IMG/VR virus record: IMGVR_UViG_3300031251_000119
Location: 1 to 20,812 of that record
Direction: 5' to 3' (one strand)
Length of the DNA: 20,812 nt
DNA from: a virus
Shown here: one piece after another, positions 3 through 19,620 of the stretch
Layout: each line of letters opens with the position of its first letter
Position numbering within the stretch: position 1 is the first letter of the stretch
Made by a program: the position numbers and the translations under genes
Notes under the pieces: generated by a model
What the model saw: only the letters and a program-made list of their open reading frames with translations
What the model was told of the DNA's origin: nothing
The model's database searches: none

Positions 3-833
3 CAACGATGGACAGAATTTACAAAGACTTGGCAATTTACTGATGAGTATAAAAACATTGAGATGCCATTCGTAACAGTAGTTAGAAGACCTGATATACA
101 ACAAGGACAAAATCAAGCTGGTCTTTGGAACATTCCTGGAAACCGAACATATACATACATGAAGGTTCCTACTTTTGATGGAATCAGAAAAGGTGTTGAT
201 TTATACAAGGTTCCTCAACCAACATCAGTTGATATAACCTATGAAGTTAGATTATTCACCAATAGAATGAAGGACTTGAATCGATTTAACAGAAAGATAC
301 AACGAGCTTTCCAATCAAGACAGTGTTATATAAATGTAAATGGGCATCCAATGCCATTACACTTGGAAAATATTGGGGATGAAAGTAATATTGATGATTT
401 TCAAAACAGACGATTTTATGTTCAAATGTTTGAGATGAAACTTCTTGGATATATATTGGATGAAGATGATTTTGAAGTTGTTCCAACATTAAATCGTTCA
501 GTAGTTATGATGGAACTTGATGAGAATAACATTTACAATAAGGTTATTTTTGACCCAATAAAAAGAGGTAATGTTGTTACATATAACTTTATCTATAAAC
601 CAAAATCTGAAGCACAATTCACATTCAATGCACAATATGATGTATCATTTACACAATTGGTTAACATTGAAAACATAACTAGAATAATAATATCAGTAAA
701 TAACATGGTTGTATTTGATGGAACAGTATTGACAACACCTATCATATTACATGCAAACGATGTTATCATTGTAACTATAACTAAAAATTTTCTTTCAAAC
801 GGAAAGTTCACATTAATTGGTAATACTATATAA
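3..833 (+). CDS. Partial tail/baseplate-type structural protein (5' end outside window)
   Basis: The reading frame is open from the first complete codon at position 3. The first ATG (63) lies inside a conserved-looking stretch, so the true start is upstream of the window and about 277 residues are visible. The visible N-terminal part is rich in Arg, Pro and aromatic residues (for example VTVVRRPDIQQGQNQAG). The C-terminal part (about the last 90 residues) is beta-rich and looks like an immunoglobulin-like or carbohydrate-binding sandwich. There is no signal peptide or membrane segment. The stop overlaps the next ATG by one base (TAATG), so it is translationally coupled to the fibre gene. From this position and from general resemblance to structural proteins of Bacteroidetes contractile phages I infer a virion, probably tail or baseplate, protein. 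I see no catalytic motif and do not recognise a named family. Confidence 0.7.
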   Translation, partial: QRWTEFTKTWQFTDEYKNIEMPFVTVVRRPDIQQGQNQAGLWNIPGNRTYTYMKVPTFDGIRKGVDLYKVPQPTSVDITYEVRLFTNRMKDLNRFNRKIQRAFQSRQCYINVNGHPMPLHLENIGDESNIDDFQNRRFYVQMFEMKLLGYILDEDDFEVVPTLNRSVVMMELDENNIYNKVIFDPIKRGNVVTYNFIYKPKSEAQFTFNAQYDVSFTQLVNIENITRIIISVNNMVVFDGTVLTTPIILHANDVIIVTITKNFLSNGKFTLIGNTI

Positions 834-3682
834 TGGGTAATTTAAGCAATTCATCAGATATAAATCAAACATTTATTCTAGAACCACTTTTGGTTACTGG
901 TGATACACCTACATTGTCTGCATGTACGATATTTTATACAAATAATATTCAATCTTGTAGTGGTGATACTCAAATATTATTAGGTACCAATTTAATAATA
1001 TTTAATGGTAATTTTTATTCTAATAATGGTCTTACTGCAAATACAATATCAGCAACTACTTACTTAAATTTACCTATCGACATTCATATTACAGGAGGTA
1101 CTTACTCTAATGGATCAGCTACGTTCACAAATAATACGGGTGGTACATTTAGTGTTAGTGGGTTTAGTTCAAGTGCTACATTTACAGGAGGAACGGTTGC
1201 TGGACCTACCAACTTTACCAATGGCTTAACAGCAAATACAATAAGTGCAACTACTTATTTTAATCTACCTATTGATATTCGAATTACTGGTGGTACTTAT
1301 TCAAATGGAAGTACCACATTTACAAATAATACAGGTGGTACGTTTAGTGTCAGTGGGTTTAGTACAGGAAGTTCAAATACAATATGGACAACTGGAAGTA
1401 CTGGTCAGTATTCAATTAAAGCAATTAATGATAGTAATCTTGATGCAACAGGTAGTTATGCAATAGCAGAAGGATATAATACTCTTGCTAGTGGAGATTA
1501 TTCTCACGCTGAAGGGTTATTTACTGTTTCTAGCGGTGTTTCTAGTCATGTTGAAGGAAACCAAACTAAAGCACTTGGTGATTTTTCACATGCAGAAGGA
1601 AATCAATCAACAGCTAATAATAATACAACACATGTTGAAGGTTATCAATCAACAGCTAATGGAAACGTTAGTCATTCTGAAGGTTATCAAACTACTTCTA
1701 TTGGTGATAATTCACATTCTGAAGGTTATAATACAACAGCTATTGGTTTTACAAGTCATGCTGAAGGTGGTTTAACTATTGCTAATGGTGGTTTCTCACA
1801 TGCTGAAGGATATACAGCAACAGCTCTTGGTGATTTCTCACACACAGAAGGTATATATACAACAGCTATTGGTCAATTTTCACATGCTGGAGGTAATACA
1901 AGTATTGCTAATGGTGATGGAAGTTTTGTTCATGGTCAATCATCAATAGCAAGTGGAACAACAACAATAGTTTTAGGTGATAACATAACAGGTACAACTG
2001 ATAATACATTATATGTTGATCGATTAAATGTGAAAACAATTAGTGGTGATACATCAATAATGAATATTGGTATTGATATTAACGGATTTATTACTACAGG
2101 AACAAGTGCTTCTAGTTTTAGTGGTGGCACTGTAATTGGACCAACTAATTTCACAAATGGTCTAACTGCTAATACATTTTCAGCTAGTACTTATTTTAAC
2201 CTTCCTATTGATATAAGAGTAACAGGAGGAACATACTCTAATGGAACAGGAATAGCTATTTTTAAAAATAATACAGGTGGAACATTTAGTGTTAGTGGCT
2301 TTAGTACAGGAAGTACAGATATATATACAACAGGAGTAACATTATCTAATTCAACAGTAACATTCAGAAGAAATGATAATAATACATATGGTATTAATCT
2401 ATCTGCTTTAACTACAGGTTATCTTCCATTAAGTGGTGGAACACTTACAGGTCGAGTTACTGGAACAACATTTTTTGTTAATGATGCAGTTGAATTTAGT
2501 GGTGATTCAATTAATATAAGTACACATATAACTAATCCAACACTATCAGCAAATACTAATTGGTTTGTTGATGATTCAGGACCATATATTGGAGCTTGGT
2601 CAGCAACACCAGTTACATTTAATGCTGGTGATTTTGTAAGTTATCTTGGGGATATCTATCAAAATCAAACAGGTAGCAACTCAACATTTAATCCATCAGT
2701 TGATCCATTTGGCGATTGGTTATTGTCTTATAATAATTATGTTGGAAGTTTCAATCCATCATCTGTTTATGCTATTGGAGTAGTGGTTGATTATCAAGGA
2801 TTTATTTATACCCATCTAACTAATACAAATCTTATTTATAATAATATAGCTTATAATGGAAGTGGATTTACCTTTGGTTCTAATGCAGCTACATATGCAA
2901 CTATTTATCCAACAAGTCTTGATGTTCCAGAAATTACAAGTCCAACAGGAACATTAACTTTATTTACATCTAATGTTTTAGTTAATGCTTTTTCATTTAA
3001 TGTAGGTGCAAGTAGTAATATTTTTATGAATGCTACAAATTATTCTTATTTTGGTATTAACGGTAATTATAATAATCTTGTATTTTTCAATAATTCAGCT
3101 GGTGATATTCTAAGTCCAAATACAGATGCATATGCAAGTTTATTTGCTACAAAAAATTCAAGAATTAATTCAACAGCATATAACTCACCAATACTTGGTG
3201 GTTCTAATGGATTAATGCAAGCTGGTATTCAAAATTCAGTTATTTTAGGTGGTAACGGAGTAACAGCTACAACAAATAATACAGCTTATGTTGATCGACT
3301 TAATATCAAAACTATTGGATCAGGTTCTACAATAATTAATTTAGGATTGGATTCATCAGGTAATGTAGTAACTGGAAGTACTGCTGGTACAGAAGTATTT
3401 GTAACAGGTGGAACATACAATAACTCTACTACTAATGGTACTGCTATATTCACAAATAATACGGGTGGTACATTTAGTATAAATGGATTTAGTTCTAGTT
3501 TTACAGGAGGAACTGTTACAGGTAATACAACTTTTAATGCTGGTCTTTCAGCATCAACAATAACAAGTACAAGTTTAACAGCTAGTACAATAAGCTCAAC
3601 TACAATAACTGTAACTAATATTATAAGTAATGATATTGACTTTCCTACTATAGCTGCATTTAGATTCTTAACAGGTAACTAA
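833..3682 (+). CDS. Tail fibre/adhesin with YadA-head-like SHAEG repeats (949 aa)
   Basis: This is a very long Gly/Ser/Thr/Asn-rich protein of modular fibre type. Residues about 65-195 contain two copies of a module with the core NGLTANTISATTY...PIDI...TGGTYSNG...FTNNTGGTFSVSGF. A third copy starts near residue 442, and a degenerate fourth lies near the C-terminus. Residues about 206-395 hold some twelve 14-residue repeats ending in SHAEG, SHSEG or SHVEG, which is the left-handed beta-roll repeat of YadA-type trimeric adhesin heads as found in phage fibres. The stretch ends with the cap STTIVLGDNITGTTDNTLY in a variant form. Near residue 530 is LPLSGGTLTG, a short motif very common in phage tail fibres. 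I see no C-terminal chaperone or autoproteolytic domain. It probably forms a trimeric fibre for host attachment. Translation is coupled to the upstream gene by a one-base overlap. Confidence 0.8.
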   Translation: MGNLSNSSDINQTFILEPLLVTGDTPTLSACTIFYTNNIQSCSGDTQILLGTNLIIFNGNFYSNNGLTANTISATTYLNLPIDIHITGGTYSNGSATFTNNTGGTFSVSGFSSSATFTGGTVAGPTNFTNGLTANTISATTYFNLPIDIRITGGTYSNGSTTFTNNTGGTFSVSGFSTGSSNTIWTTGSTGQYSIKAINDSNLDATGSYAIAEGYNTLASGDYSHAEGLFTVSSGVSSHVEGNQTKALGDFSHAEGNQSTANNNTTHVEGYQSTANGNVSHSEGYQTTSIGDNSHSEGYNTTAIGFTSHAEGGLTIANGGFSHAEGYTATALGDFSHTEGIYTTAIGQFSHAGGNTSIANGDGSFVHGQSSIASGTTTIVLGDNITGTTDNTLYVDRLNVKTISGDTSIMNIGIDINGFITTGTSASSFSGGTVIGPTNFTNGLTANTFSASTYFNLPIDIRVTGGTYSNGTGIAIFKNNTGGTFSVSGFSTGSTDIYTTGVTLSNSTVTFRRNDNNTYGINLSALTTGYLPLSGGTLTGRVTGTTFFVNDAVEFSGDSINISTHITNPTLSANTNWFVDDSGPYIGAWSATPVTFNAGDFVSYLGDIYQNQTGSNSTFNPSVDPFGDWLLSYNNYVGSFNPSSVYAIGVVVDYQGFIYTHLTNTNLIYNNIAYNGSGFTFGSNAATYATIYPTSLDVPEITSPTGTLTLFTSNVLVNAFSFNVGASSNIFMNATNYSYFGINGNYNNLVFFNNSAGDILSPNTDAYASLFATKNSRINSTAYNSPILGGSNGLMQAGIQNSVILGGNGVTATTNNTAYVDRLNIKTIGSGSTIINLGLDSSGNVVTGSTAGTEVFVTGGTYNNSTTNGTAIFTNNTGGTFSINGFSSSFTGGTVTGNTTFNAGLSASTITSTSLTASTISSTTITVTNIISNDIDFPTIAAFRFLTGN
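1451..1950 (+). repeat. 42-nt period repeat coding for SHAEG units (first cassette)
   Basis: About twelve tandem units of roughly 42 bases encode 14-residue repeats whose conserved core is S-H-[AVST]-E-G. Copies differ in almost all third positions, so the array is an old coding repeat rather than a recent expansion. A related but longer array lies at 10657-11572. Confidence 0.85.
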
Positions 3683-5072: not shown

Positions 5073-5501
5073 ATGAAAAGAGGACTTAATTCATTTGGAG
5101 ACTTGAATACACAGGATTATGTGGTTCTATTTGATAGCACTAGATTTGCTGATGGACTTAAATATTGTACTGGATTCTCATCATTATCAACTGATGGAGC
5201 TTTAGCTTATAAAATAGTTGGTAATATGTTATTCTGTTCTTTCTTTTTTGAGGGAACTTCAAATGCAACAACAAAGACATTTACAATTCCACTTGGACAG
5301 AGTATTCAAATACCAACAAATACAAATAACCAATTTATGGTTAGAGTTATGAATAATGGTGGTGCTGCAACTACTGGATTAGCTAGAATTAATGCTGGTA
5401 ATGGTACTATAACAGTAACTGTATTTAATGGAATAACTACATGGACAGCATCTGGTAATGCCTTTTTTATAGGTCAATTTATGGTTCCAATCAATTTATA
5501 A
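5073..5501 (+). CDS. Receptor-binding-like tail protein, paralog 3 of 3 (142 aa)
   Basis: This is the third paralog, again three bases after the previous stop and in the same frame. Shared landmarks are YKIVGNMLF, then EGTSNATTKTFTIPLG, then a NNGGAATTGLARI segment and a final WTASGNAFFIGQF strand. The N-terminal lead (MKRGLNSFGDLN) matches the short Gly/Asn-rich leads of paralogs 1 and 2, which may be the part that docks to the tail. The opening W-x-x-Y-x-P-T of paralog 2 is absent here. A host-surface binding role is inferred from the module type and the position among fibre genes. Confidence 0.62.
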   Translation: MKRGLNSFGDLNTQDYVVLFDSTRFADGLKYCTGFSSLSTDGALAYKIVGNMLFCSFFFEGTSNATTKTFTIPLGQSIQIPTNTNNQFMVRVMNNGGAATTGLARINAGNGTITVTVFNGITTWTASGNAFFIGQFMVPINL

Positions 5502-5528
5502 TAACAGGTATACATAAACTAAAAAGAT

Positions 5529-5536
5529 ATATTTAT
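5529..5536 (+). promoter_or_regulatory. ATATTTAT motif, candidate late promoter element
   Basis: The 14 bases ending here (AAAGATATATTTAT) recur identically before the gene at 7912. The motif is 7 bases ahead of the ATG at 5544, or 25 bases ahead of the in-frame ATG at 5562. The functional reading is inference. Confidence 0.35.
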
Positions 5537-5543
5537 CTAATAT

Positions 5544-5849
5544 ATGGCTGGATTTAAACATATGGAGGAAGATTTAAAGAAATACTCAGAAGTATTAACT
5601 ATAAAGCTTCGTGATGATCTTAAAAATAATGGTCATTATTCAAGTGGTAAATTGGATCAGAGTATTAATGTAACATTAAAAGTTGAAGGAAATGGTGTAG
5701 CTTTGGATTTCAAAGCTTTAGACTATATAAAAAAACTTGAAAATGGTAAGTTTTGGACTGAATGGATTAAAAAACAAATTCCAGATATAAATAATATTGT
5801 AGCAAAAGCTATGCAAAAAGATATAATAGAAGATTTAAAACAACAATAA
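5544..5849 (+). CDS. Small tail-completion-like protein (101 aa)
   Basis: This is a short charged protein. Residues 7-28 form a Lys/Asp-rich amphipathic helix, followed by SSGKLDQSINVTLKVEG and a short strand, and then helices containing WTEWIKK to the C-terminus. The order helix, then S-G-x-L-x-x-S-I, then beta strands is reminiscent of HK97 gp10-like tail completion/neck proteins, but the match is weak and I offer it only as a possibility. The start is uncertain: ATG 5544 is very close to the upstream ATATTTAT motif, and a second ATG at 5562 (MEEDLKK) is possible. The stop lies two bases before the GIY-YIG endonuclease start. Before that endonuclease arrived it probably lay directly next to the structural gene now at 6420. 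Confidence 0.55.
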   Translation: MAGFKHMEEDLKKYSEVLTIKLRDDLKNNGHYSSGKLDQSINVTLKVEGNGVALDFKALDYIKKLENGKFWTEWIKKQIPDINNIVAKAMQKDIIEDLKQQ

Positions 5850-5851
5850 TA

Positions 5852-6433
5852 ATGTCAATAAGCTTTATAAGTACACCAGCTCTAATATCACCTGTATTTT
5901 ATATATATTTACATATAAGATTAACAGATGGTTCTCCATTTTATGTTGGTAAAGGTAATGGTAGAAGAGCTACTAGAACACAACATAGAAATAATTGGTG
6001 GCATAATATTGTTAATAAACATGGATTTGATATCATTATGCTTGAAGAAGGATTAACAGAAGAACAAGCATTAGAAAAAGAGATTTATTGGATTAATAGA
6101 ATAGGTCGAAAAGATCAAGGTAAAGGACCACTTGTTAATATGACAGATGGAGGTGAAGGAAAAAGTGGTAATGTAACAAGTGATGAAACTAAAAAGAAAT
6201 TAAGTAAATTAAACAAAGGTGCTAATAATGCTTTTTATGGTAAAAAACATTCAGAAGAAACAATAAATAAAATGAAAACTCTTTTAGCTAAAAGAGTCGT
6301 TTCAGATGAAACAAAATTAAAAATGTCTTTATCACATACAGGTCAAAAAAGAACTGAAGAACAAAAGCTAAGAATGAAAATTGCACAAATTAAAATAGCA
6401 AATTTAAAAAGATATAATAATGATAACATTTAA
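5852..6433 (+). CDS. GIY-YIG homing endonuclease with NUMOD3 motifs (193 aa)
   Basis: The nuclease core is clear: YIYLH at residues 17-21 and FYVGKGNGRR at 30-39 form the GIY-YIG signature in its YVYLH/FYVGKG variant, with R38/R39 in the helix, E77 as candidate metal-binding Glu, and N96 plus the GGEG turn (100-103) closing the domain. Residues 110-140 contain a NUMOD3 DNA-binding motif (KKLSKLNKG...FYGKKHSEET), and 151-180 hold a second, degenerate one. This is a free-standing homing endonuclease that would cut related phage genomes lacking it. Residues 2-15 (SISFISTPALISPV) are not part of the family but resemble the first residues of the next gene. It starts 2 bases after the previous stop and overlaps the next gene by 14 bases. 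Confidence 0.9.
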   Translation: MSISFISTPALISPVFYIYLHIRLTDGSPFYVGKGNGRRATRTQHRNNWWHNIVNKHGFDIIMLEEGLTEEQALEKEIYWINRIGRKDQGKGPLVNMTDGGEGKSGNVTSDETKKKLSKLNKGANNAFYGKKHSEETINKMKTLLAKRVVSDETKLKMSLSHTGQKRTEEQKLRMKIAQIKIANLKRYNNDNI

Positions 6434-7862
6434 TTCTCTTCCTTCGATTATATCTCCAGTTTATAATCCTATATACTTTGATGTACAATCTACAAATACA
6501 TCTCAAGGTCTATTTAAGTATGTATTTCAACTCTATTCACCTTTTAATGCTTCAACGATCTTAAGCACAGTAAAAATGCTTCCAAGACCTGATACTACTT
6601 GTATTTATAATCCAGCCAGAATTCTTGAATCTAAATTATCATTTGATTCTAATATTCAAAATATAGTTACAATTACAGCTTCAACTAATCATTATACTTC
6701 ATATAAGGTTAATTTTGGAGAGGAATATCAATACAATTGGAATTATTCTGATTATTTTTATTGTAATGCATTCTCAACCTTCCCATATACAGCCTTTACA
6801 GCTAATATTGGTTTTACTGGTTCTACACCACACTATTATTCAAGTGGTGATGTTATCACAATTACACATCAAAGTCCAGCTCAAAATCCTCAATTTACAG
6901 GAACTTGGACAGTATTGGCTGTTCCTAATCCATATCAAATAATTACAAGTATTACATCTGCTACTGGTTCATCAGCTGAAACTGGAACAACTATTTATTC
7001 TGATAGACGAGTTACAACCATTTCTGGATTGACTGGTTATACTGGTTATACATTTAATGGTGTTAATCAATATGATGAAATTCCATCTTGGAATTATCTT
7101 AGCTATATCATGACAGGTACTACTGGAAGTAAGAAATTCTTAACCAATATGCCAAGAAACGGTGTATATTTAAAAAATACTAATCGAGGAACACTTTCAT
7201 TCTTTAACTATTTAACAACAGCAAATATTATAAGAGTTATTACTTATCAAAATTCTGGTGGTACACTTACTACAAATATTCCTATAACAATTCCTAATAC
7301 TAATGATATTGTTCATATTCCATCTGGAATTTATAATATTAATGGTATGTCAGCTAATACAATAAATATAACAAGAGACTATCAATATACTGTTGCTTTA
7401 GTTGGTGGTGGTGGATTTATATCTGAATCAATACTATATTTAATTGATGGTAGATGTTCAAAATATGATGGAGTAAGACTTCAATTCTTAAATAGACTTG
7501 GAGGTTATGATTATGTCAATTTTGATATGGTTTCAAGACAAACAGTTAATACAACTAAATCTTATTTCAAGAAGAGACTTGATTATAATTATTCAGTTGG
7601 TGCAAGAGAAAAGACAGTATTGGATGTAAATGGCAATTATGTATTTACAGTTAATTCAAATTGGATGGATGATGCAGAATCAGCTTGGATGGAGGAATTA
7701 CTTACCAGTTCAGTTGTGAATATTATTCAACCAGATGGAACTTGTCTTCCAGTTAATGTACTTGAACAAAGTGTTGAAATACAAAAAACCATCAATAATA
7801 AGATGATCATGTATTCATTTAATCTTGAATCAGCCTTTACAATCAACGGACAAAGAAGTTAA
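6420..7862 (+). CDS. Tail/baseplate-type structural protein (480 aa)
   Basis: This is a beta-rich, aromatic-rich protein without signal peptide or membrane helices. It opens with SLPSIISPVYNPIYFDVQS, an opening I associate with a structural protein family in Bacteroidetes phages that sits next to a protein like the one at 7912. The middle part (residues 120-250) is rich in Thr/Gly/Tyr. The C-terminal half has RLGGYDYVNF and a long regular beta region to residue 475. Its ATG lies within the last codons of the upstream endonuclease (14-base overlap), so translation is coupled to or reinitiated after the endonuclease. The first 14 residues resemble residues 2-15 of that endonuclease. A baseplate or tail role is inferred from position. 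Confidence 0.65.
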   Translation: MITFNSLPSIISPVYNPIYFDVQSTNTSQGLFKYVFQLYSPFNASTILSTVKMLPRPDTTCIYNPARILESKLSFDSNIQNIVTITASTNHYTSYKVNFGEEYQYNWNYSDYFYCNAFSTFPYTAFTANIGFTGSTPHYYSSGDVITITHQSPAQNPQFTGTWTVLAVPNPYQIITSITSATGSSAETGTTIYSDRRVTTISGLTGYTGYTFNGVNQYDEIPSWNYLSYIMTGTTGSKKFLTNMPRNGVYLKNTNRGTLSFFNYLTTANIIRVITYQNSGGTLTTNIPITIPNTNDIVHIPSGIYNINGMSANTINITRDYQYTVALVGGGGFISESILYLIDGRCSKYDGVRLQFLNRLGGYDYVNFDMVSRQTVNTTKSYFKKRLDYNYSVGAREKTVLDVNGNYVFTVNSNWMDDAESAWMEELLTSSVVNIIQPDGTCLPVNVLEQSVEIQKTINNKMIMYSFNLESAFTINGQRS

Positions 7863-7911: not shown

Positions 7912-10900
7912 ATGAATTCAAACGTTGAAATTCTTGTTTATGGCACTAGTGGTAGTACAGCAGTAGGTATTCTGGATTTATTTGATTCAGAACCAATTAC
8001 TCTTAGTATTGCTGTATCTGACATTAAGGACATAAAGACACGTAAATCAACCTTTTCTCAATCATTCACCGTTCCTGGTACAAGAAACAACAATACCCTT
8101 TTCAATTTCTTATTTGAAATAGGATCAGATTCTCAATTTGATCCAAGAAAGAAAACACCTTGTCAATTACTTGTGGATACAATTCCAGTAATGACAAATG
8201 GTAATCTTCAATTAACAGCTATCAACGTTGATGATCAAAAGAGCATTACTTATGAAGTAAGTGTATTTGATGAAGTTGAGGACCTTATTGATGCTATTGG
8301 TGATAGAGAATTAACTGATCTTAGCTTCTCTGGATTGAATCATACTTGGAGTTATTCAAGTATTACAGCTTCATGGACTGGTTCAAGTCAACCTTATTTC
8401 TATCCTATGATGGATTATGGATATGATTTGAATATCACTCAATTGAATAATGGAACTGGTATGACAGTTAATCAATTCTATCCAGCTACTCAAGTTAAAA
8501 CAATAGTTGATAAGATTTTTAGTGGTGCTGGATTTACATATTCAAGTACTCTATTTGATTCAACATATTTTAAGAATTTATATATTCCATTTAATGGAAC
8601 AACCAATTTCAATAATACACAAGCTTGGGCAAAGAGACAACAATTTAATGTTCAACCTAAATTGAATGTTAGTTTTTCTGGTACAGTTAATCCTCAATCA
8701 AATGCCAATTTAAGTATTACTTATGATTCAATAGGTCAATTTAATAATACAACTGTATTCCCTGCATTTGATAATGGTAGCTTATTCAATCCAAGTACAT
8801 TTAAATATACAGCTGATACTCTTTCTATTCAATCATTTAAGGTTCAATTAGATTGGATGTTATCAGCATCAACAGGAAATCTTGGTTCTACTTATGGTAT
8901 TATAAGAGGTGCTAGATTCTTCAGATCAGGTTATATGAATGGTACACAACCATTCCAAAGTGTTTTAAATACAACTGTACCTCATGTTTCAAGAAATGTA
9001 CAGTATATTGAAGCATATGAATCAGCTCCTTGTGATAATCCAAATTCAGGAAATCCTTTCTATTATATTCAACCAGGAGAGGCTGTATGGGCAAATCTTG
9101 TTGTTGAAGCTGCTGACTTAACTGGTATTGGAACTGCTTATACAGCAACCATCAATATTTATTTATCTGGTACATTCTTTAGTAATTCAGTTAGTACTCA
9201 AGCAATTCCAAATCAAGTTCTTAATTATGATCTTCTTATTCCATCTAAGATCAAGCAAATTGAATTTTTAAATAGCATCATAAATATGCATAATTTATAT
9301 GTAGTTTCTGATGTTAATAATTCAAAACATTTAACCATATTACCAAGAGATCAATATTATTCTGGTGGTACAACAAAAGATTGGTCAAAATTATTAGATG
9401 AATCACAAAAGGTTAATGAAGTTGTTTTATCAGAACAAACTAATAAGAGATTTATTTTCTCTTATAAAAATGATAGTGATTATTATAATAACGATTATTC
9501 AACAGTAACTAATAAGATATTTGGTGATTACTATTATATAATTGATAATGACTTTGTAAAGGATGATAAGAATATTGATTTGATATTCAGTCCAACACCA
9601 AGTATTCCAGTATTAGAATCAAACTTATTTGTACCAGTTGGTATTACAACACAAGTTGTAAATGACTTTGTTATTCCTAAGATTGGTAAGGTTGATAGCA
9701 ACGATCAATTCGGTGCAACCAATTTCAATATAAGAATTCTTCAAAAGAACTCAGGTAACTTATTACCATTATCAACAGATACTTGGCAATTTGAAGGAAA
9801 TATCTATAATCAATTTCCGTACCTTGGCATGCTAAATCACCCGTTCTCAGGGGATACAGATATTTCATTTGGTACAGTTAATTATGAATATTATACACTT
9901 CCAGATATTACAGATAATAATCTTATCAATAATTATTGGAAAACATATCTTGATCAAATTGCAGATAAAAACAGCAAATTGATTACAGCTTATTTCAAAT
10001 TAAGTCCAGCTGATATTCAAAATTTCAAATTCTCTGATAGCATATTCGTTGATGGATTAACTTCAGATGGTGGTCATTATTTTATTGTAAATAAGATTGA
10101 ATATACACTTACAAGCAATATGCCTAGTAAGGTTGAATTAATTAAGGTTAATGATAAAACAGTTATCAAAGGAAGATCAGCAGTTCCATATATTCCATAT
10201 ACAAGACCAAGACAAGTAATAAATCTTGCTGGTGGTTTAAGTCTTTCAACTGGAAGTGTTGCTATTGGTGATAGTGTAACGATATCTCAAATGTCAAGTG
10301 GTAGCTTAGCTATTGGTGATAATATACTTATTGATGGAGGTTCTAGAGATAGCTTTGCCATGGGTAGTAGTTTAAGAATTGGTGGTGGAAGTCAAAACTC
10401 ATTTATAATGGGTAATAATAGTGCTATTAGTGCTAATACAATTAATTCATTTGTATTGGGAAATAATATGACTGGAACAAGTTCAAATACTCTTTATACA
10501 AATAATATTGTTCTTTCTAGTTCAAGTACACTTACAATTGGTAATACAGTAATCAGTTCAACAGGAACAACAACTGATCCATGGAAATCAGGAAGTACAG
10601 GAACATTTTCAATAAGAGCAAATAATAATACAGCAATTGATGCTATAGGTAACTATGCAGTTGCTGAAGGTAATAATACAACAGCATCAGGATTCACCAG
10701 TCATGCTGAAGGTAGTAACTCAACATCACAAGGAAACTATTCACATGCTGAAGGTTTAGGTTCATTATCACTTGGAACTGCAAGTCATGCAGAAGGTAGT
10801 ACAAATGCTAATGGTGACTTCTCACATGCAGAAGGTAATGCAAGTGTATCAAATGGAGCTAGTTCCCATGCTGAAGGCTCATCAAGTGCAAATGCTGATT

Positions 10901-12687
10901 ATTCTCATTCAGAGAATTTTGGTACAGCTAATGGATTATATTCACATGCTGAAAATAGTTCAATTACATATGGTGATAATTCACATGGTGAAGGAACAGG
11001 AACAGCAAGTGGTCAAACATCCCATGCTGAAGGCTATAATACTCTAGCACTTGGAACTGCAAGTCATGCTGAAGGTGGTGATCCAAACTTTGTATTTGCC
11101 ACACCAACAACAGCAATTGGAGCTGCAAGTCATGCTGAAGGATTTCAAACAACAGCCATAGGAACTTATTCACATAGTGAAGGTGACTCAACTACAGCAT
11201 CTGGATTCACAGCTCATGCTGAAGGATTTAGTACATCAGCACTTAATGATTATACACATAGTGAAGGTTATTTAACAATAGCTGGTGGATTATATTCACA
11301 TGCTGAAGGTAATGGAAGTATTGCATCTGGATTGATATCTCATGCTGAAGGTGGTGGTTCAACAGCAATTGGAACTAATTCACATGCTGAAGGTGGTAAT
11401 TCAATAGCGTCTGGGATTCAAAGTCATAGTGAAGGATCACAAACAACAGCACTAGGTGTTAGTAGTCATTCTGAAGGTGATAATACAACTGCAAAAGGTG
11501 ACAAAAGTCATGCTGGTGGTCATTCATCCATTGCATCAGGTGATACATCATTCGTTCATGGAAATAATAGTATTGCAATAGGGTCAAGTACAATAGTCCT
11601 AGGTGATAATATAACAGGAGCAACTAATAATACGCTTTATAGTAGTAATTTAAATGTTGCATCAAAAACAGTTTTAAGCACAGTAACAGCCACTACTATA
11701 TCAGCTATTACTGTTACTGCATCAACTAGATTAGATGTTGGTTTGACAGCATTTAATACAATTAACACAGAAAGACTTTTAGTTGATGATGGGGTTGCAG
11801 CAACTGCATATTCTAATACTATTGTTGCTAAAGCAAATACTAATAATTATGCTCAATTCAATATTACTAACTCAAATTCAGGTACAAGTGCATCATCAGA
11901 TATAGTTGCAACTGCTAATAATGGTAATGAAAATATCAATTTTATTGATATGGGGATTAATTCATCTGGTTATACTGATATTGTTGGGATAGCAAATGAT
12001 GCTTATGTTTATTCAACAGGGAATAATTTATATATTGGAAACGCTACTGCTAGTAAAAATATTCAATTTTTTACTGATGGAACTAATTCTGCTAATACAA
12101 GAGTTACTGTTACGTCAGCCTCAACAAGATTTGATGTTCCTATTTTATCTGGTGCTACTGATTTAATGACATATATTAATACTACAATGTCTAGATATAC
12201 AACATTAGTATTTGGTGGTATATTATTAGGAACAGCTACAGCTGCTGGTACATTTTTAATAACAGGACAACTTAATACAGCTGTTAAAAGTAATACAACA
12301 GCAGCTGGAGGTGTCGGTATTGCTTATATTAATATAGTAGCTGCTGATTATCCAGCTATTAATGGTTTAAATCCAAAGTTAAGAATCAGAGCAAGTTTAT
12401 CAACAAATAACATAGCACCTACTGGTGGTTATACTTTTGGCTTATATCCAGTTAGAGTAACTGGTGGTACAGCAACTAATATTACATTTAGTGCTGGTAC
12501 CGTTGTATCTGGTAGTCAAACTACTTCGATTATCGCACCAGCAAGTGGAACAACAACAAATGTAGTAGGAAGTGATTTTGCATTACCAACAGATGGTTTA
12601 TATGTAATTGGATTAGTTACAACAGCAACAACAGCTGCTAACTCAGTAACATCAACAGTCAGTTATTTACAAATGAGATATAATTAA
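7912..12687 (+). CDS. Tail protein fused to YadA-head-like adhesin (1591 aa)
   Basis: The protein has two parts. Residues 1 to about 770 are a tail/baseplate-like protein; the stretch around residues 37-70 (DIKDIKTRKSTFSQSFTVPG, then NNNTLFNFLFEIG) is typical of a large structural protein of Bacteroidetes phages. From about 774 to 895 come loose YadA-head-like units (SLAIGDN, SFAMGSS, SFIMGNN, SFVLGNN). From 910 to 1240 there are about 22 units ending in SHAEG or variants, closed by the cap STIVLGDNITGATNNTLY. Next is a segment with NYAQFNITNSNSGTSASSDI, a domain seen in other phage fibres, and a C-terminal beta domain from about 1426. It probably anchors in the baseplate and projects an adhesive fibre. 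No self-cleaving peptidase domain follows the repeats. Confidence 0.78.
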   Translation: MNSNVEILVYGTSGSTAVGILDLFDSEPITLSIAVSDIKDIKTRKSTFSQSFTVPGTRNNNTLFNFLFEIGSDSQFDPRKKTPCQLLVDTIPVMTNGNLQLTAINVDDQKSITYEVSVFDEVEDLIDAIGDRELTDLSFSGLNHTWSYSSITASWTGSSQPYFYPMMDYGYDLNITQLNNGTGMTVNQFYPATQVKTIVDKIFSGAGFTYSSTLFDSTYFKNLYIPFNGTTNFNNTQAWAKRQQFNVQPKLNVSFSGTVNPQSNANLSITYDSIGQFNNTTVFPAFDNGSLFNPSTFKYTADTLSIQSFKVQLDWMLSASTGNLGSTYGIIRGARFFRSGYMNGTQPFQSVLNTTVPHVSRNVQYIEAYESAPCDNPNSGNPFYYIQPGEAVWANLVVEAADLTGIGTAYTATINIYLSGTFFSNSVSTQAIPNQVLNYDLLIPSKIKQIEFLNSIINMHNLYVVSDVNNSKHLTILPRDQYYSGGTTKDWSKLLDESQKVNEVVLSEQTNKRFIFSYKNDSDYYNNDYSTVTNKIFGDYYYIIDNDFVKDDKNIDLIFSPTPSIPVLESNLFVPVGITTQVVNDFVIPKIGKVDSNDQFGATNFNIRILQKNSGNLLPLSTDTWQFEGNIYNQFPYLGMLNHPFSGDTDISFGTVNYEYYTLPDITDNNLINNYWKTYLDQIADKNSKLITAYFKLSPADIQNFKFSDSIFVDGLTSDGGHYFIVNKIEYTLTSNMPSKVELIKVNDKTVIKGRSAVPYIPYTRPRQVINLAGGLSLSTGSVAIGDSVTISQMSSGSLAIGDNILIDGGSRDSFAMGSSLRIGGGSQNSFIMGNNSAISANTINSFVLGNNMTGTSSNTLYTNNIVLSSSSTLTIGNTVISSTGTTTDPWKSGSTGTFSIRANNNTAIDAIGNYAVAEGNNTTASGFTSHAEGSNSTSQGNYSHAEGLGSLSLGTASHAEGSTNANGDFSHAEGNASVSNGASSHAEGSSSANADYSHSENFGTANGLYSHAENSSITYGDNSHGEGTGTASGQTSHAEGYNTLALGTASHAEGGDPNFVFATPTTAIGAASHAEGFQTTAIGTYSHSEGDSTTASGFTAHAEGFSTSALNDYTHSEGYLTIAGGLYSHAEGNGSIASGLISHAEGGGSTAIGTNSHAEGGNSIASGIQSHSEGSQTTALGVSSHSEGDNTTAKGDKSHAGGHSSIASGDTSFVHGNNSIAIGSSTIVLGDNITGATNNTLYSSNLNVASKTVLSTVTATTISAITVTASTRLDVGLTAFNTINTERLLVDDGVAATAYSNTIVAKANTNNYAQFNITNSNSGTSASSDIVATANNGNENINFIDMGINSSGYTDIVGIANDAYVYSTGNNLYIGNATASKNIQFFTDGTNSANTRVTVTSASTRFDVPILSGATDLMTYINTTMSRYTTLVFGGILLGTATAAGTFLITGQLNTAVKSNTTAAGGVGIAYINIVAADYPAINGLNPKLRIRASLSTNNIAPTGGYTFGLYPVRVTGGTATNITFSAGTVVSGSQTTSIIAPASGTTTNVVGSDFALPTDGLYVIGLVTTATTAANSVTSTVSYLQMRYN
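10657..11572 (+). repeat. 42-nt period repeat coding for SHAEG units (second cassette)
   Basis: About 22 tandem units, mostly 42 bases, encode 14-residue YadA-head-like repeats. Two units are shortened (GSTNANGDF and SSSANADY types) and one is lengthened by an insertion with PNFVFATPTTA. The flanking caps match those of the array at 1451-1950. Confidence 0.85.
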
Positions 12688-15934: not shown

Positions 15935-17086
15935 ATGACTAAAATAAAGATAACAGGAAAACAATATAATACAATTGTATTACATGAACAACAAAGCCGT
16001 TTAAATGCTTCTGGTGATCTTATTACTGAATCATTGGACCCAAGTGTTGAATTGTTGGAAGAAGGTTGGAGAGAGGTTGTTTTAGGGGTTGCATTAATGT
16101 TAGGTGTTGGTCTTAGTGGTCCAAATAAACTTGCAGCTCAAAATGCTGTTAAAAATGATTCTACAATGGCTCAAATTAAATCTACTTTGGATAGTGAGCT
16201 TAAAACAAAAGAATTATCTGCTGCTTTTAAAGAAAAAGGAATGCAAGACCCAGATTCTTTGTTGGCAAAAAATGCCAACAAAGTTATTAGTCAATTTAAT
16301 GAAATAGCTGCTGATAATAATATCAAATATAGAGTAACAACTAAAGCTGTTGATAACCTAGCAGCTTTAAATACAGCGTTAAAACAAGGTTATGCTTTAA
16401 AGCAAACAGATGTTACTACTGATACAACAAAAGCTCCGTTAACAAATAATATTACAACAGTAAGAGATACTATTGAAGTTGAATTGGGAAGTGATAATTT
16501 ATTTGTTACTGGTGGTTATACACTTAGTACAGCTGGTAGTCAAATCATAACATCCACTCTAGATTCAATCAAAAGTCAAGGCGGTAAAATAATTGGTGCT
16601 AACATCGAATCATCAACAGATGCTGAGGTTATTCACAAGTTTCAAAATCAATCGGACCCTACTGGAAATATTAAATTAGCTTCATTAAGAACACAGAGTG
16701 TATCTACTCTTTTAACTCAATTAGATTCAGGTGCTGCTATTACACATAGAGAAATTCCTAATAATGGTGCTGATGTAGTTAGTACAAAAGAATTTTCAAA
16801 TGCTGCATCTAATCCAACTACACTTGATTCATTGAGAGGACAAACAAGTCAATTCCGTTATGTAAAAATTAAAATTGTTGTTGAATTTGAGCAACAAGAT
16901 ACGACCCAAAAACCAAAACCAGAAGAAATCATTAAAAATTACAGATATGAACTAGTTAAGGTTATTGAGACGAAAGGTAAAGCAAGTAAGATACACACAA
17001 AGGTACATTTTGCACACAAAAAGTTCACTTGTAAACCACACAAATCTGGAAAATTTGTAGTTGATAAGTGTTCTACTCACTTTTAA
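15935..17086 (+). CDS. OmpA-like (peptidoglycan-binding type) domain protein (383 aa)
   Basis: The N-terminus (MTKIKITGKQYNTIVLHEQQ) is a Lys/Gln-rich helix. Residues about 47-62 (VVLGVALMLGVGLSG) form a short hydrophobic segment, not a classic signal peptide because it starts too late. Residues 75-160 are helical. From about 187 to 300 the order is VELGSDNLFVTGGYTLSTAG, a helix, the strand GGKIIGANIESSTDAE, and later KLASLRTQSVSTLL. This follows the OmpA-C plan (strand, helix, strand ending near the G-x-T-D position, then L-x-x-x-R-x-x-x-V-x-x-x-L), which in that family contacts peptidoglycan. The C-terminus is Lys/His-rich. It may be a virion or lysis protein touching the cell wall. It is convergent with the CAP gene and overlaps it by 14 bases. 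Confidence 0.6.
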   Translation: MTKIKITGKQYNTIVLHEQQSRLNASGDLITESLDPSVELLEEGWREVVLGVALMLGVGLSGPNKLAAQNAVKNDSTMAQIKSTLDSELKTKELSAAFKEKGMQDPDSLLAKNANKVISQFNEIAADNNIKYRVTTKAVDNLAALNTALKQGYALKQTDVTTDTTKAPLTNNITTVRDTIEVELGSDNLFVTGGYTLSTAGSQIITSTLDSIKSQGGKIIGANIESSTDAEVIHKFQNQSDPTGNIKLASLRTQSVSTLLTQLDSGAAITHREIPNNGADVVSTKEFSNAASNPTTLDSLRGQTSQFRYVKIKIVVEFEQQDTTQKPKPEEIIKNYRYELVKVIETKGKASKIHTKVHFAHKKFTCKPHKSGKFVVDKCSTHF

Positions 17087-17624
17087 AATTCATCACTACA
17101 TAAAATTTAACTTCGTAGTGGCTTACAAAATTTTTATATTCAATTGTTTTATCACCGATCTTGATTGTATTGGATTTAAACTTGATGTCAGTTGTTATGA
17201 TATCAAATCCAATTGATTTATAGTCTCCAAGTAAAATTGCTTTGTGTTTAGGTGATTGATCAAACATGTAAATAGCATAAAGCTTAACATATTTAACAAC
17301 ATCCGTATCATTTTCAGGTTCGATATAATCAATACCAAAAACACTTTTCAAAAAACAAATAAATCTGGTTTTTTCGTCATTGGTTGAGGGCAGGGAGCTA
17401 CCCATCGTTGCAATTTCAGTTGTTACATGTGAGTGACTAAGGCTATCTTGTTTGATGATGACAGCTGTTTGTGTTTTAGACACCTTAGCAAGATCACAAG
17501 ACCAAACTAATGCTGATTTACCATTAAAGCTTCTGTATTGATTGATAAACCCAAGCATTTCCGTATCTTGAGCGTAGATGCTGGTAGATACTGTGATAAA
17601 GAGTGCAATGATTAGGTTTTTCAT
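17073..17624 (-). CDS. Secreted CAP-superfamily (SCP/PR1-like) protein (183 aa)
   Basis: Start at the ATG at 17624; an in-frame TTG at 17645 would give seven more residues but lies inside the promoter -7 box. Residues 1-19 (MKNLIIALFITVSTSIYAQ) are a signal peptide with a probable cut after A18. The CAP features follow: INQYR...G...LVWSCDLAKVS at 27-49, SHSH at 63-66 with TEIATMG in the place of the usual G-E-N segment, and SPKHKAILLGDYKSIGFD at 124-141 matching the W-x-x-S-x-x-H...iG element. CAP proteins of bacteria are extracytoplasmic and of varied function; no activity can be assigned. It is transcribed against the late genes from its own host-type promoter, like a moron gene of bacterial origin. 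Confidence 0.75.
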   Translation of the reverse strand: MKNLIIALFITVSTSIYAQDTEMLGFINQYRSFNGKSALVWSCDLAKVSKTQTAVIIKQDSLSHSHVTTEIATMGSSLPSTNDEKTRFICFLKSVFGIDYIEPENDTDVVKYVKLYAIYMFDQSPKHKAILLGDYKSIGFDIITTDIKFKSNTIKIGDKTIEYKNFVSHYEVKFYVVMNFKSE

Positions 17625-17642
17625 AACGTTTTTATTACCTAA

Positions 17643-17674
17643 CAAAGGTAAGTAAAAAATATTTAAATACCAAA
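17643..17674 (-). promoter_or_regulatory. Bacteroidetes-type promoter for the CAP gene
   Basis: On the minus strand: TTTG (17674-17671), 20 bases, TACCTTTG (17650-17643). This is a perfect match to the -33 TTTG / -7 TAnnTTTG pattern, with the ATG 18 bases beyond the -7 box. It also fixes the CAP gene start at 17624. Confidence 0.8.
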
Positions 17675-18744: not shown

Positions 18745-19620
18745 ATGATAGTTTGTAAAGAATGTAATAGAGAATTTGAATCATTAGATTCATTAAGAAG
18801 ACATAGAAGACAGAAACATGGGATTAATGCTGAACAAACATATGTTGATTATATATTAGGTGGTATTGAACCTAAGTGTAAATGTGGTTGTGGAGATAAG
18901 CCAAAATACTTGGGTATTGATGCTGGATATAATGATTATATGCGTGGACATGCTGCTAGAATAAATAATAATTGGGGGCATAATAAAACAGCACTTGAAA
19001 AATCTCATGCAACACAAAAAAGAATGCATGATGAAGGTAACCTTAAAGTATGGAATGATGGATTAACAATTGATGATGAAAGGGTGAGAAAGAATATTGA
19101 TAAGGTTATGGCTAATCCAAATCGTGGTGCAAATATTTCTAAGAAGTTATTTGGTGTTGAGAAAAGTGATGAGCATAAAGCAAATCTAAGTAAAACAGCT
19201 ATTATTAGATGGTCTAATAAAGAAGAAAGAGATAAACAAGCTGATAGATTAATTAAACGTTTAATTAAAAATAATTATAGAAATAAGAAAACAAAATTAG
19301 AATCCAAATTTGAAGAATTATTAGCAACATTAAATGTTAATTTTAAATATCAACATCAAGTTAGTTCATGTATTTTTGATTACCTAATTTTAGATAAAAA
19401 TACAGTTATTGAAGTAGATGGTGATTTTCATCATTGTAATCCTAATTCAACACATAGAATTCCTAAATATCCAATCCAATTTAAATCAATCGGTAATGAT
19501 ATTAGGAAAAACCTAATAGCTAAAGATAATAATATGAAACTACTTAGATATTGGGAATCTGATATAAACCAAAGACCAGAATGGGTTATTGAGGAATTAA
19601 AACGAGAATTAAATTTGTAA
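18745..19620 (+). CDS. Zinc-finger EDxHD-type (Vsr-like fold) homing endonuclease (291 aa)
   Basis: Residues 4-25 form a C2H2 zinc finger (C4, C7, H20, H25), followed by a CKCGCG cluster at 45-50 that may bind a second zinc. Residues 90-170 are a basic linker with NUMOD3-like features (SDEHKANLSKTAIIRW). The nuclease domain spans about 186-280: E186 in LESKFEELL, D212 in IFDYLI, the E223-V-D-G-D-F-H-H block, D252 in GNDIRKNLIA, and LLRYWESDI. This is the arrangement of the EDxHD family of phage homing endonucleases (I-Bth0305I type), related to Vsr and PD-(D/E)XK nucleases. It stands directly after the tail tube gene, a conserved gene of the kind such elements target, and has a separate host-type promoter. 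Confidence 0.85.
   Translation: MIVCKECNREFESLDSLRRHRRQKHGINAEQTYVDYILGGIEPKCKCGCGDKPKYLGIDAGYNDYMRGHAARINNNWGHNKTALEKSHATQKRMHDEGNLKVWNDGLTIDDERVRKNIDKVMANPNRGANISKKLFGVEKSDEHKANLSKTAIIRWSNKEERDKQADRLIKRLIKNNYRNKKTKLESKFEELLATLNVNFKYQHQVSSCIFDYLILDKNTVIEVDGDFHHCNPNSTHRIPKYPIQFKSIGNDIRKNLIAKDNNMKLLRYWESDINQRPEWVIEELKRELNL

Follow-up and report, generated by a model that had tools for sequence, protein, structure and literature searches.

A phage GIY-YIG endonuclease carrying a tail-protein-like N terminus: probable capture of a gene start by a homing-type element

In a 20.8-kb IMG/VR viral window (the whole stretch of DNA analysed, 20,812 nucleotides), the first 15 residues of a GIY-YIG endonuclease are, as sequence comparison confirms, a diverged copy of the N terminus of the 480-aa tail protein encoded immediately downstream. 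The arrangement is probably the product of an insertion after codon 15 of the tail gene, with the native 5′ end of that gene now forming the N terminus of the endonuclease and a replacement 5′ end serving the tail gene. The initial annotation of this DNA had proposed an insertion near codon 15, with the endonuclease taking over the original start and another start serving the structural gene, and that reading is supported by the N termini of homologues, by the gene order of endonuclease-free loci (L028/L058) and by related endonucleases that lack the extension.

Layout of the locus

The window encodes a tail sheath, a tail tube and other tail genes, and the endonuclease lies in a run of tail genes in the order 101-aa gene, endonuclease, 480-aa gene and 1591-aa gene (Table 1). 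The reading-frame coordinates first assigned to these genes are accurate, as are the 2-base gap in front of the endonuclease (5849 to 5852) and the 14-base overlap between the endonuclease and the structural gene (6420-6433). A second assembled contig (L001/L053) has the same layout within the same 900-nt block, and this rules out an artefact of this record's assembly alone.

Table 1. Features of the endonuclease locus (window coordinates)
Feature	Position	Strand	Remarks
101-aa gene	5544..5849	+	Upstream of the endonuclease; homologues (phmmer E 4.4e-14 and 2.7e-8) immediately precede the structural gene in L028/L058 and are close to it in L033/L059
AAAAAGATATAATA, copy 1 (14 nt)	5815..5828	+	Within the 3′-terminal part of the 101-aa gene; repeated exactly at 6406-6419
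GIY-YIG/NUMOD3 endonuclease, 193 aa	5852..6433	+	ATG at 5852, 2 nt past the 101-aa gene
Putative native codons 1-15 of the structural gene (captured), MSISFISTPALISPV	5852..5896	+	Now the N terminus of the endonuclease; from the profile score and extension-less endonuclease homologues
Endonuclease proper: GIY-YIG domain, then NUMOD3 repeats	5897..6433	+	Stop TAA 6431-6433; Pfam; homologues start at the 5897 position
AAAAAGATATAATA, copy 2	6406..6419	+	Abuts the structural ATG; may be left over from a duplicated gene junction or be a shared upstream element
Putative replacement 5′ end of the structural gene, MITFNSLPSIISPV	6420..6461	+	One residue below the family-norm length; 14-nt overlap with the endonuclease stop
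480-aa tail/baseplate protein	6420..7862	+	AlphaFold; VIA-align match to 6v8i_AC

Elsewhere in the window, two large open reading frames (833-3682 and 7912-12687) contain YadA-head-like SHAEG repeats, and diverged repeat DNA is common to both. A CAP-domain (cysteine-rich secretory) protein with a signal-like N terminus is encoded on the minus strand at 17073-17645, opposite to the tail genes. Just past the tail-tube-like gene, an open reading frame at 18745-19620 combines a C2H2 zinc finger with a DUF559/Vsr-like nuclease and is probably another mobile endonuclease.

The two N termini and their relatives

The endonuclease contains a GIY-YIG domain (PF01541, E = 1.3e-4, 22.7 bits against a cut-off of 22.6) followed by NUMOD3 DNA-binding motifs in two stretches (PF07460, E = 1.8e-16, 60.2 bits), and it matches the homing endonuclease family phrog_314 in PHROG (E = 8.6e-27). 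Its conserved nuclease residues are intact, with Tyr 19, Tyr 31, Gly 33, Arg 39 and Glu 77 invariant in an 18-sequence alignment (A5), and the core folds confidently in the AlphaFold model (block pLDDT about 84-95). These features point to an enzyme of the GIY-YIG/NUMOD3 homing type that is predicted to cut DNA; the overlapping reading frames and the lack of an Rfam intron match mark it as probably free-standing, outside an intron or intein.

Residues 3-15 of the endonuclease (ISFISTPALISPV) align without gaps to residues 2-14 of the structural protein (ITFNSLPSIISPV), with 8 of 13 positions identical, a match noticed at the outset and now borne out by a profile of independent homologues. The ungapped alignment scores 43 with BLOSUM62, a value reached by 1 of 20,000 shuffles in which the endonuclease 15-mer was shuffled and scored against the first 40 residues of its neighbor. 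The profile is a position-specific scoring matrix (PSSM) of 41 unique structural-family N termini, with the window's own sequence left out. On it, the endonuclease 15-mer scores 11.2 bits (iid p = 5e-6), which none of 5,028 non-family Met-15-mers reached, and the four most divergent true family members score 8.0-9.8 bits in leave-one-out tests. When all loci are compared (30,250 Met-15-mers), the next-best non-family sequence has 6.3 bits and the endonuclease alone exceeds it. With 13 residues ahead of P[VA], the endonuclease copy has the canonical length; its structural counterpart in the window lacks one residue and, aligned with a one-residue gap, fits several relatives about equally well. 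Which of two copies on the scale of 15 residues is the native one cannot be shown from sequence alone.

The structural protein has no match in Pfam, PHROG or NCBIfam, none among annotated phages at 1e-3 (a further search gave weak, partial matches only) and no confirmed match in bacterial genomes. Since annotated phages and bacterial genomes yielded no usable relatives, the family was gathered from viral contigs with a degenerate CCNGTNTAYAAYCC... motif search of IMG/VR, followed by an alignment search. Uninterrupted homologues share the N-terminal pattern M[AS]xxxxxxPxxxxP[VA]YNP, and a methionine, 12 residues and P[VA]-Y-N-P (or a close variant) begin 74 of the 84 loci examined. The initial annotation had anticipated such a start directly after the small upstream gene, and this is what is seen where that gene is present: in the endonuclease-free L028/L058, only 1 nt separates the counterpart of the 101-aa gene (phmmer E = 4.4e-14) from MAISLTSTPKAVMPVYNPIWF..., and a 1591-aa gene homologue comes next. 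This order and spacing without the endonuclease indicate that the endonuclease occupies the native start position of the structural gene. Besides L028/L058, the uninterrupted alleles comprise dozens of more distant homologues; across all of them, the nearest are only about 51-52% identical, and the set includes no closer empty-site relative. Resemblance to the ISPV segment is thus present in the family profile, contrary to one outcome that would have counted against the initial reading.

The homologue closest by body sequence (51%) is that of L054/L057 (IMGVR_UViG_3300025325_000006; L054 5286-6881, minus strand), in which ~149 unrelated residues take the place of the N terminus and end immediately in front of PVYNPI, at the joint seen in the window.

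Among ~67 non-redundant GIY-YIG relatives, the N-terminal extension is present in none; they begin with a methionine at or near the YxY core, usually as M-A-Y-V-Y-R-H-I-R. The segment is therefore not one that these endonuclease homologues carry in other places, the second outcome that would have spoken against capture. Structure prediction gives the two copies different characters. In the 480-aa protein (pLDDT 84), an Ig/FN3-like domain begins with strands made by the N-terminal residues, at its edge, and the matching segment is a confident strand (block mean pLDDT 89-91), whereas residues 1-10 of the endonuclease have a mean pLDDT of 52 and no secondary structure. The segment thus appears superfluous in the endonuclease but integral to the tail protein, which, in these models, plausibly needs it while the nuclease does not. 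Residues 350-475 of the tail protein resemble a baseplate chain of phage 80alpha (6v8i_AC; VIA-align Z 8.4 over 114 residues). Matches to complement and alpha-2-macroglobulin (Foldseek/VIA) were read as common Ig-like folds rather than relatives.

Proposed mechanism and alternative explanations

In the proposed mechanism, a free-standing GIY-YIG/NUMOD3 element would have entered a conserved tail/baseplate gene after codon 15, within the strongly conserved stretch that encodes P[VA]YNP. Codons 1-15, the native start among them, would have become joined in frame to the endonuclease core. Translation of the endonuclease would then begin where that of the structural gene once did, 2 nt past the upstream gene, presumably with translational coupling. 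Downstream, the element would supply a diverged replacement for codons 1-14, with its own ATG and the 14-nt overlap with the endonuclease stop, and through this second 5′ end the tail protein would still be made whole. As a mobile element, it would spread by cutting the intact gene of an uninfected relative near the ISPV/YNP codons; repair would copy in the endonuclease together with the recoded 5′ end, displacing the native end, and the recoded end would resist re-cutting. At a 5′ end, what is displaced includes the initiation region with its start codon, and in the window this piece would have been fused in frame to the nuclease.

Intron open reading frames commonly extend in frame into the upstream exon. 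The endonuclease could accordingly be a group I intron frame continuous with an upstream exon (MSISFISTPALISPV), its mRNA being spliced to YNPIYF, and its best NCBIfam match, below the cut-off, is indeed a group I intron endonuclease. We rejected this very improbable reading on two grounds. A cmscan of 5400-7000 at E up to 1 gave chance-level matches only, with no group I or II intron, and across the whole window no Rfam family was reached at gathering scores, the scope being the intron types in Rfam. Moreover, just ~28 nt separate the endonuclease stop from the YNP codons, and they are occupied by the intact alternative start region. Chance or convergent likeness of the two N termini gains something from the mere 15 residues involved and their low DNA identity, but it can be set aside as extremely unlikely: the profile score (iid p = 5e-6) is the sole non-family value above 6.3 bits in ~30,000 Met-15-mers, position and length match the family, and the segment is missing from other endonucleases. 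Nor does it seem at all likely that the shared N terminus, instead of being a by-product of insertion, serves as a functional signal, such as a tag for packaging the endonuclease into the virion. That the segment is recognizable despite low DNA identity would fit some constraint, but in the tail-protein family it is the first strand of an Ig-like domain, and the native 5′ piece lies unfused beside other phage endonucleases (L007, L350 and L298), so fusion is not required.

Given an insertion, the origin of the second 5′ end has two candidate explanations. We favor its arrival with the element from another phage over a local, diverged duplicate. No donor was found, and with the copies identical at 22 of 42 bases (52%) over 14 codons, the 12-14 codons are too few to place. 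Local duplication, possible though rather doubtful, would have the element insert between genes or into the gene and imprecise repair duplicate the junction, the 5′ ends then diverging in place with nothing contributed by another phage. Both copies do lie in one phage, the 14-nt AAAAAGATATAATA repeat fits a duplicated junction, and exact short flanking repeats occur in L185 (20 nt) and L035 (30 nt). Against it stand the low DNA identity of the two 5′ ends and the mitochondrial parallel, in which the duplicate end was judged foreign (PMC3630166).

The AAAAAGATATAATA repeat would also fit a copied arm that starts within the upstream gene, a situation evident in L007. A repeat of 14 nt was reached by 53 of 20,000 shuffled pairs and by 6 of 19,599 random genome-stretch pairs, so it is suggestive only. 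A similar motif, AAAGATATA, occurs four times on the plus strand (5523, 5817, 6408 and 7884; ~0.8 expected), once ahead of each of four consecutive gene starts at distances of 12-35 nt, and also 31 nt ahead of the structural start in L028. Because it precedes two other genes in the cluster, AAAGATATA was dropped as proof that the duplication reaches into the upstream gene, which is thus only suggested. It is possibly a shared promoter or translation element, and the 14-nt repeat could itself be a recurring upstream motif.

Duplicated gene ends in other phages and in mitochondria

We compared the left and right flanks of 119 non-redundant related phage endonuclease copies. The null of this survey includes related loci and therefore overstates chance scores; that of a smaller set is cleaner. 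Besides the window, which in this anonymous survey alone is only moderately significant (null 0.1-0.4% per locus), about nine copies are flanked by a duplicated host-gene end, three 5′ and six 3′. For two of these, L298 and L185, the evidence is homologous genes or exact DNA repeats and not the survey score.

In the 5′ case L007 (2913-3804), a 29-codon native remnant, MKIKDIINESKDTLKLPNIDVGDEVKVGG and a stop, precedes a GIY-YIG gene and, beyond it, the complete gene, whose 5′ end has diverged, MKIRDIIEDQKDILNLPSISKGDMVLVG...; the duplication takes in the junction with the preceding gene, whose LNED-stop end is now the endonuclease's own C terminus. L350 has an MTTFKWVV remnant, the endonuclease and then MTSYKWVI..., and L298 has MRIYEPKNRID, the endonuclease and then MIYEFRNRIE.... 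Of the 3′ cases, L139 has a duplicated host-gene end, and in L035 (12143-13650) the 3′ end of a 221-aa gene is duplicated, 30 nt exactly, beyond a convergent GIY-YIG gene. L185 (17-3804) has two fibre-like genes ending in IVATK, each followed by a GIY-YIG gene, and the first endonuclease ends in KIVATK like the fibre gene, with a 20-nt exact repeat. L147, L148 and L295 have one common target gene. The small gene struck at its 3′ end in L147/L148 is 5′-whole there, and the reverse holds in L298, making each the empty site of the other.

Fusion of a native start in frame to the nuclease is confined to the window among these cases. The initial annotation had raised the sharing of this fusion by other phages; for this target, a search returned only the same phage, and what does recur is duplicated host-gene termini beside other phage GIY-YIG genes. 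One candidate, the GIY-YIG gene of L114, lies upstream of the small gene before a structural homologue and shows no fusion. Other GIY-YIG-like genes near structural homologues lie before terL (L079/L080) or, as a 195-aa open reading frame, upstream of the small gene (L118). In L188 (~2480-3115), the endonuclease leader TTATATTAAAAAAACA recurs (15 of 16 nt) ahead of the following gene, which starts ATGGCA and encodes a GroES-like protein; this is possibly a capture of the leader and first two codons of that gene.

Mobile open reading frames with duplicated gene ends are known from mitochondria: Allomyces macrogynus atp6, Glomus sp. atp6, atp9, cox2 and nad3, Rhizopus oryzae atp9 and Mortierella verticillata cox2 (PMC3630166). 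As is proposed for the window, an endonuclease frame lies within a conserved gene, and the element's diverged copy of the gene end replaces the displaced native end. Those elements, mostly LAGLIDADG, replace the 3′ (C-terminal) end, whereas the phage GIY-YIG element of the window would replace the 5′ end and so gain a native start codon and initiation site. The mitochondrial 3′ form has its likeness in phage loci L139, L035, L147/L148/L295 and L185. Insertions in Tremella fuciformis likewise duplicate part of the host gene, and exchange of gene fragments was proposed for them, but they are mitochondrial, mostly annotated as introns, and the insert stays in some cDNAs (PMC7315562).

In phages, mobE in Aeh1 nrdA and mobA in the T4 topoisomerase are also free-standing endonucleases inside essential coding regions, but the split genes give two polypeptides that reassemble (PMC2988022), whereas the tail protein of the window would be whole by way of its second 5′ end. 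T4 seg and mob endonucleases resemble the present case as promoter-less homing genes that use neighbors' expression signals, with start and stop codons that overlap; the T4 genes, though, overlap their upstream neighbor, and no captured coding segment of a downstream gene is described there (PMC2988022). Split genes and overlaps are described in PMC2988022 and PMC10448857, replacement ends are not, and no description of phage terminus replacement was found in the open-licence papers searched, which is weak evidence of absence. Terminus replacement as such is known from the fungal mitochondrial elements; what appears to differ here is the 5′ start-capture form in a phage.

It may well be that free-standing GIY-YIG endonucleases of phages are commonly terminus-replacing elements, which insert in the first or last codons with a recoded copy of the gene end, sometimes including the end of a neighboring gene. 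They would keep the host gene alive and immune to re-cutting, shuffle gene ends between phages and sometimes receive the native start or stop region; the window would be the start-capture form. A selfish nuclease could then enter an essential coding region by means of a spare gene end, without intron, intein or protein splitting, which would widen the safe homing sites in phages and provide a route for swapping N and C termini between them. It would account for odd short N-terminal extensions and leftover mini-frames beside phage endonucleases, and it warns annotators that endonuclease N termini may be pieces of neighboring genes. The pattern would also link phage homing genes to the mobile frames of fungal mitochondria, in a setting where cultivable phages allow testing.
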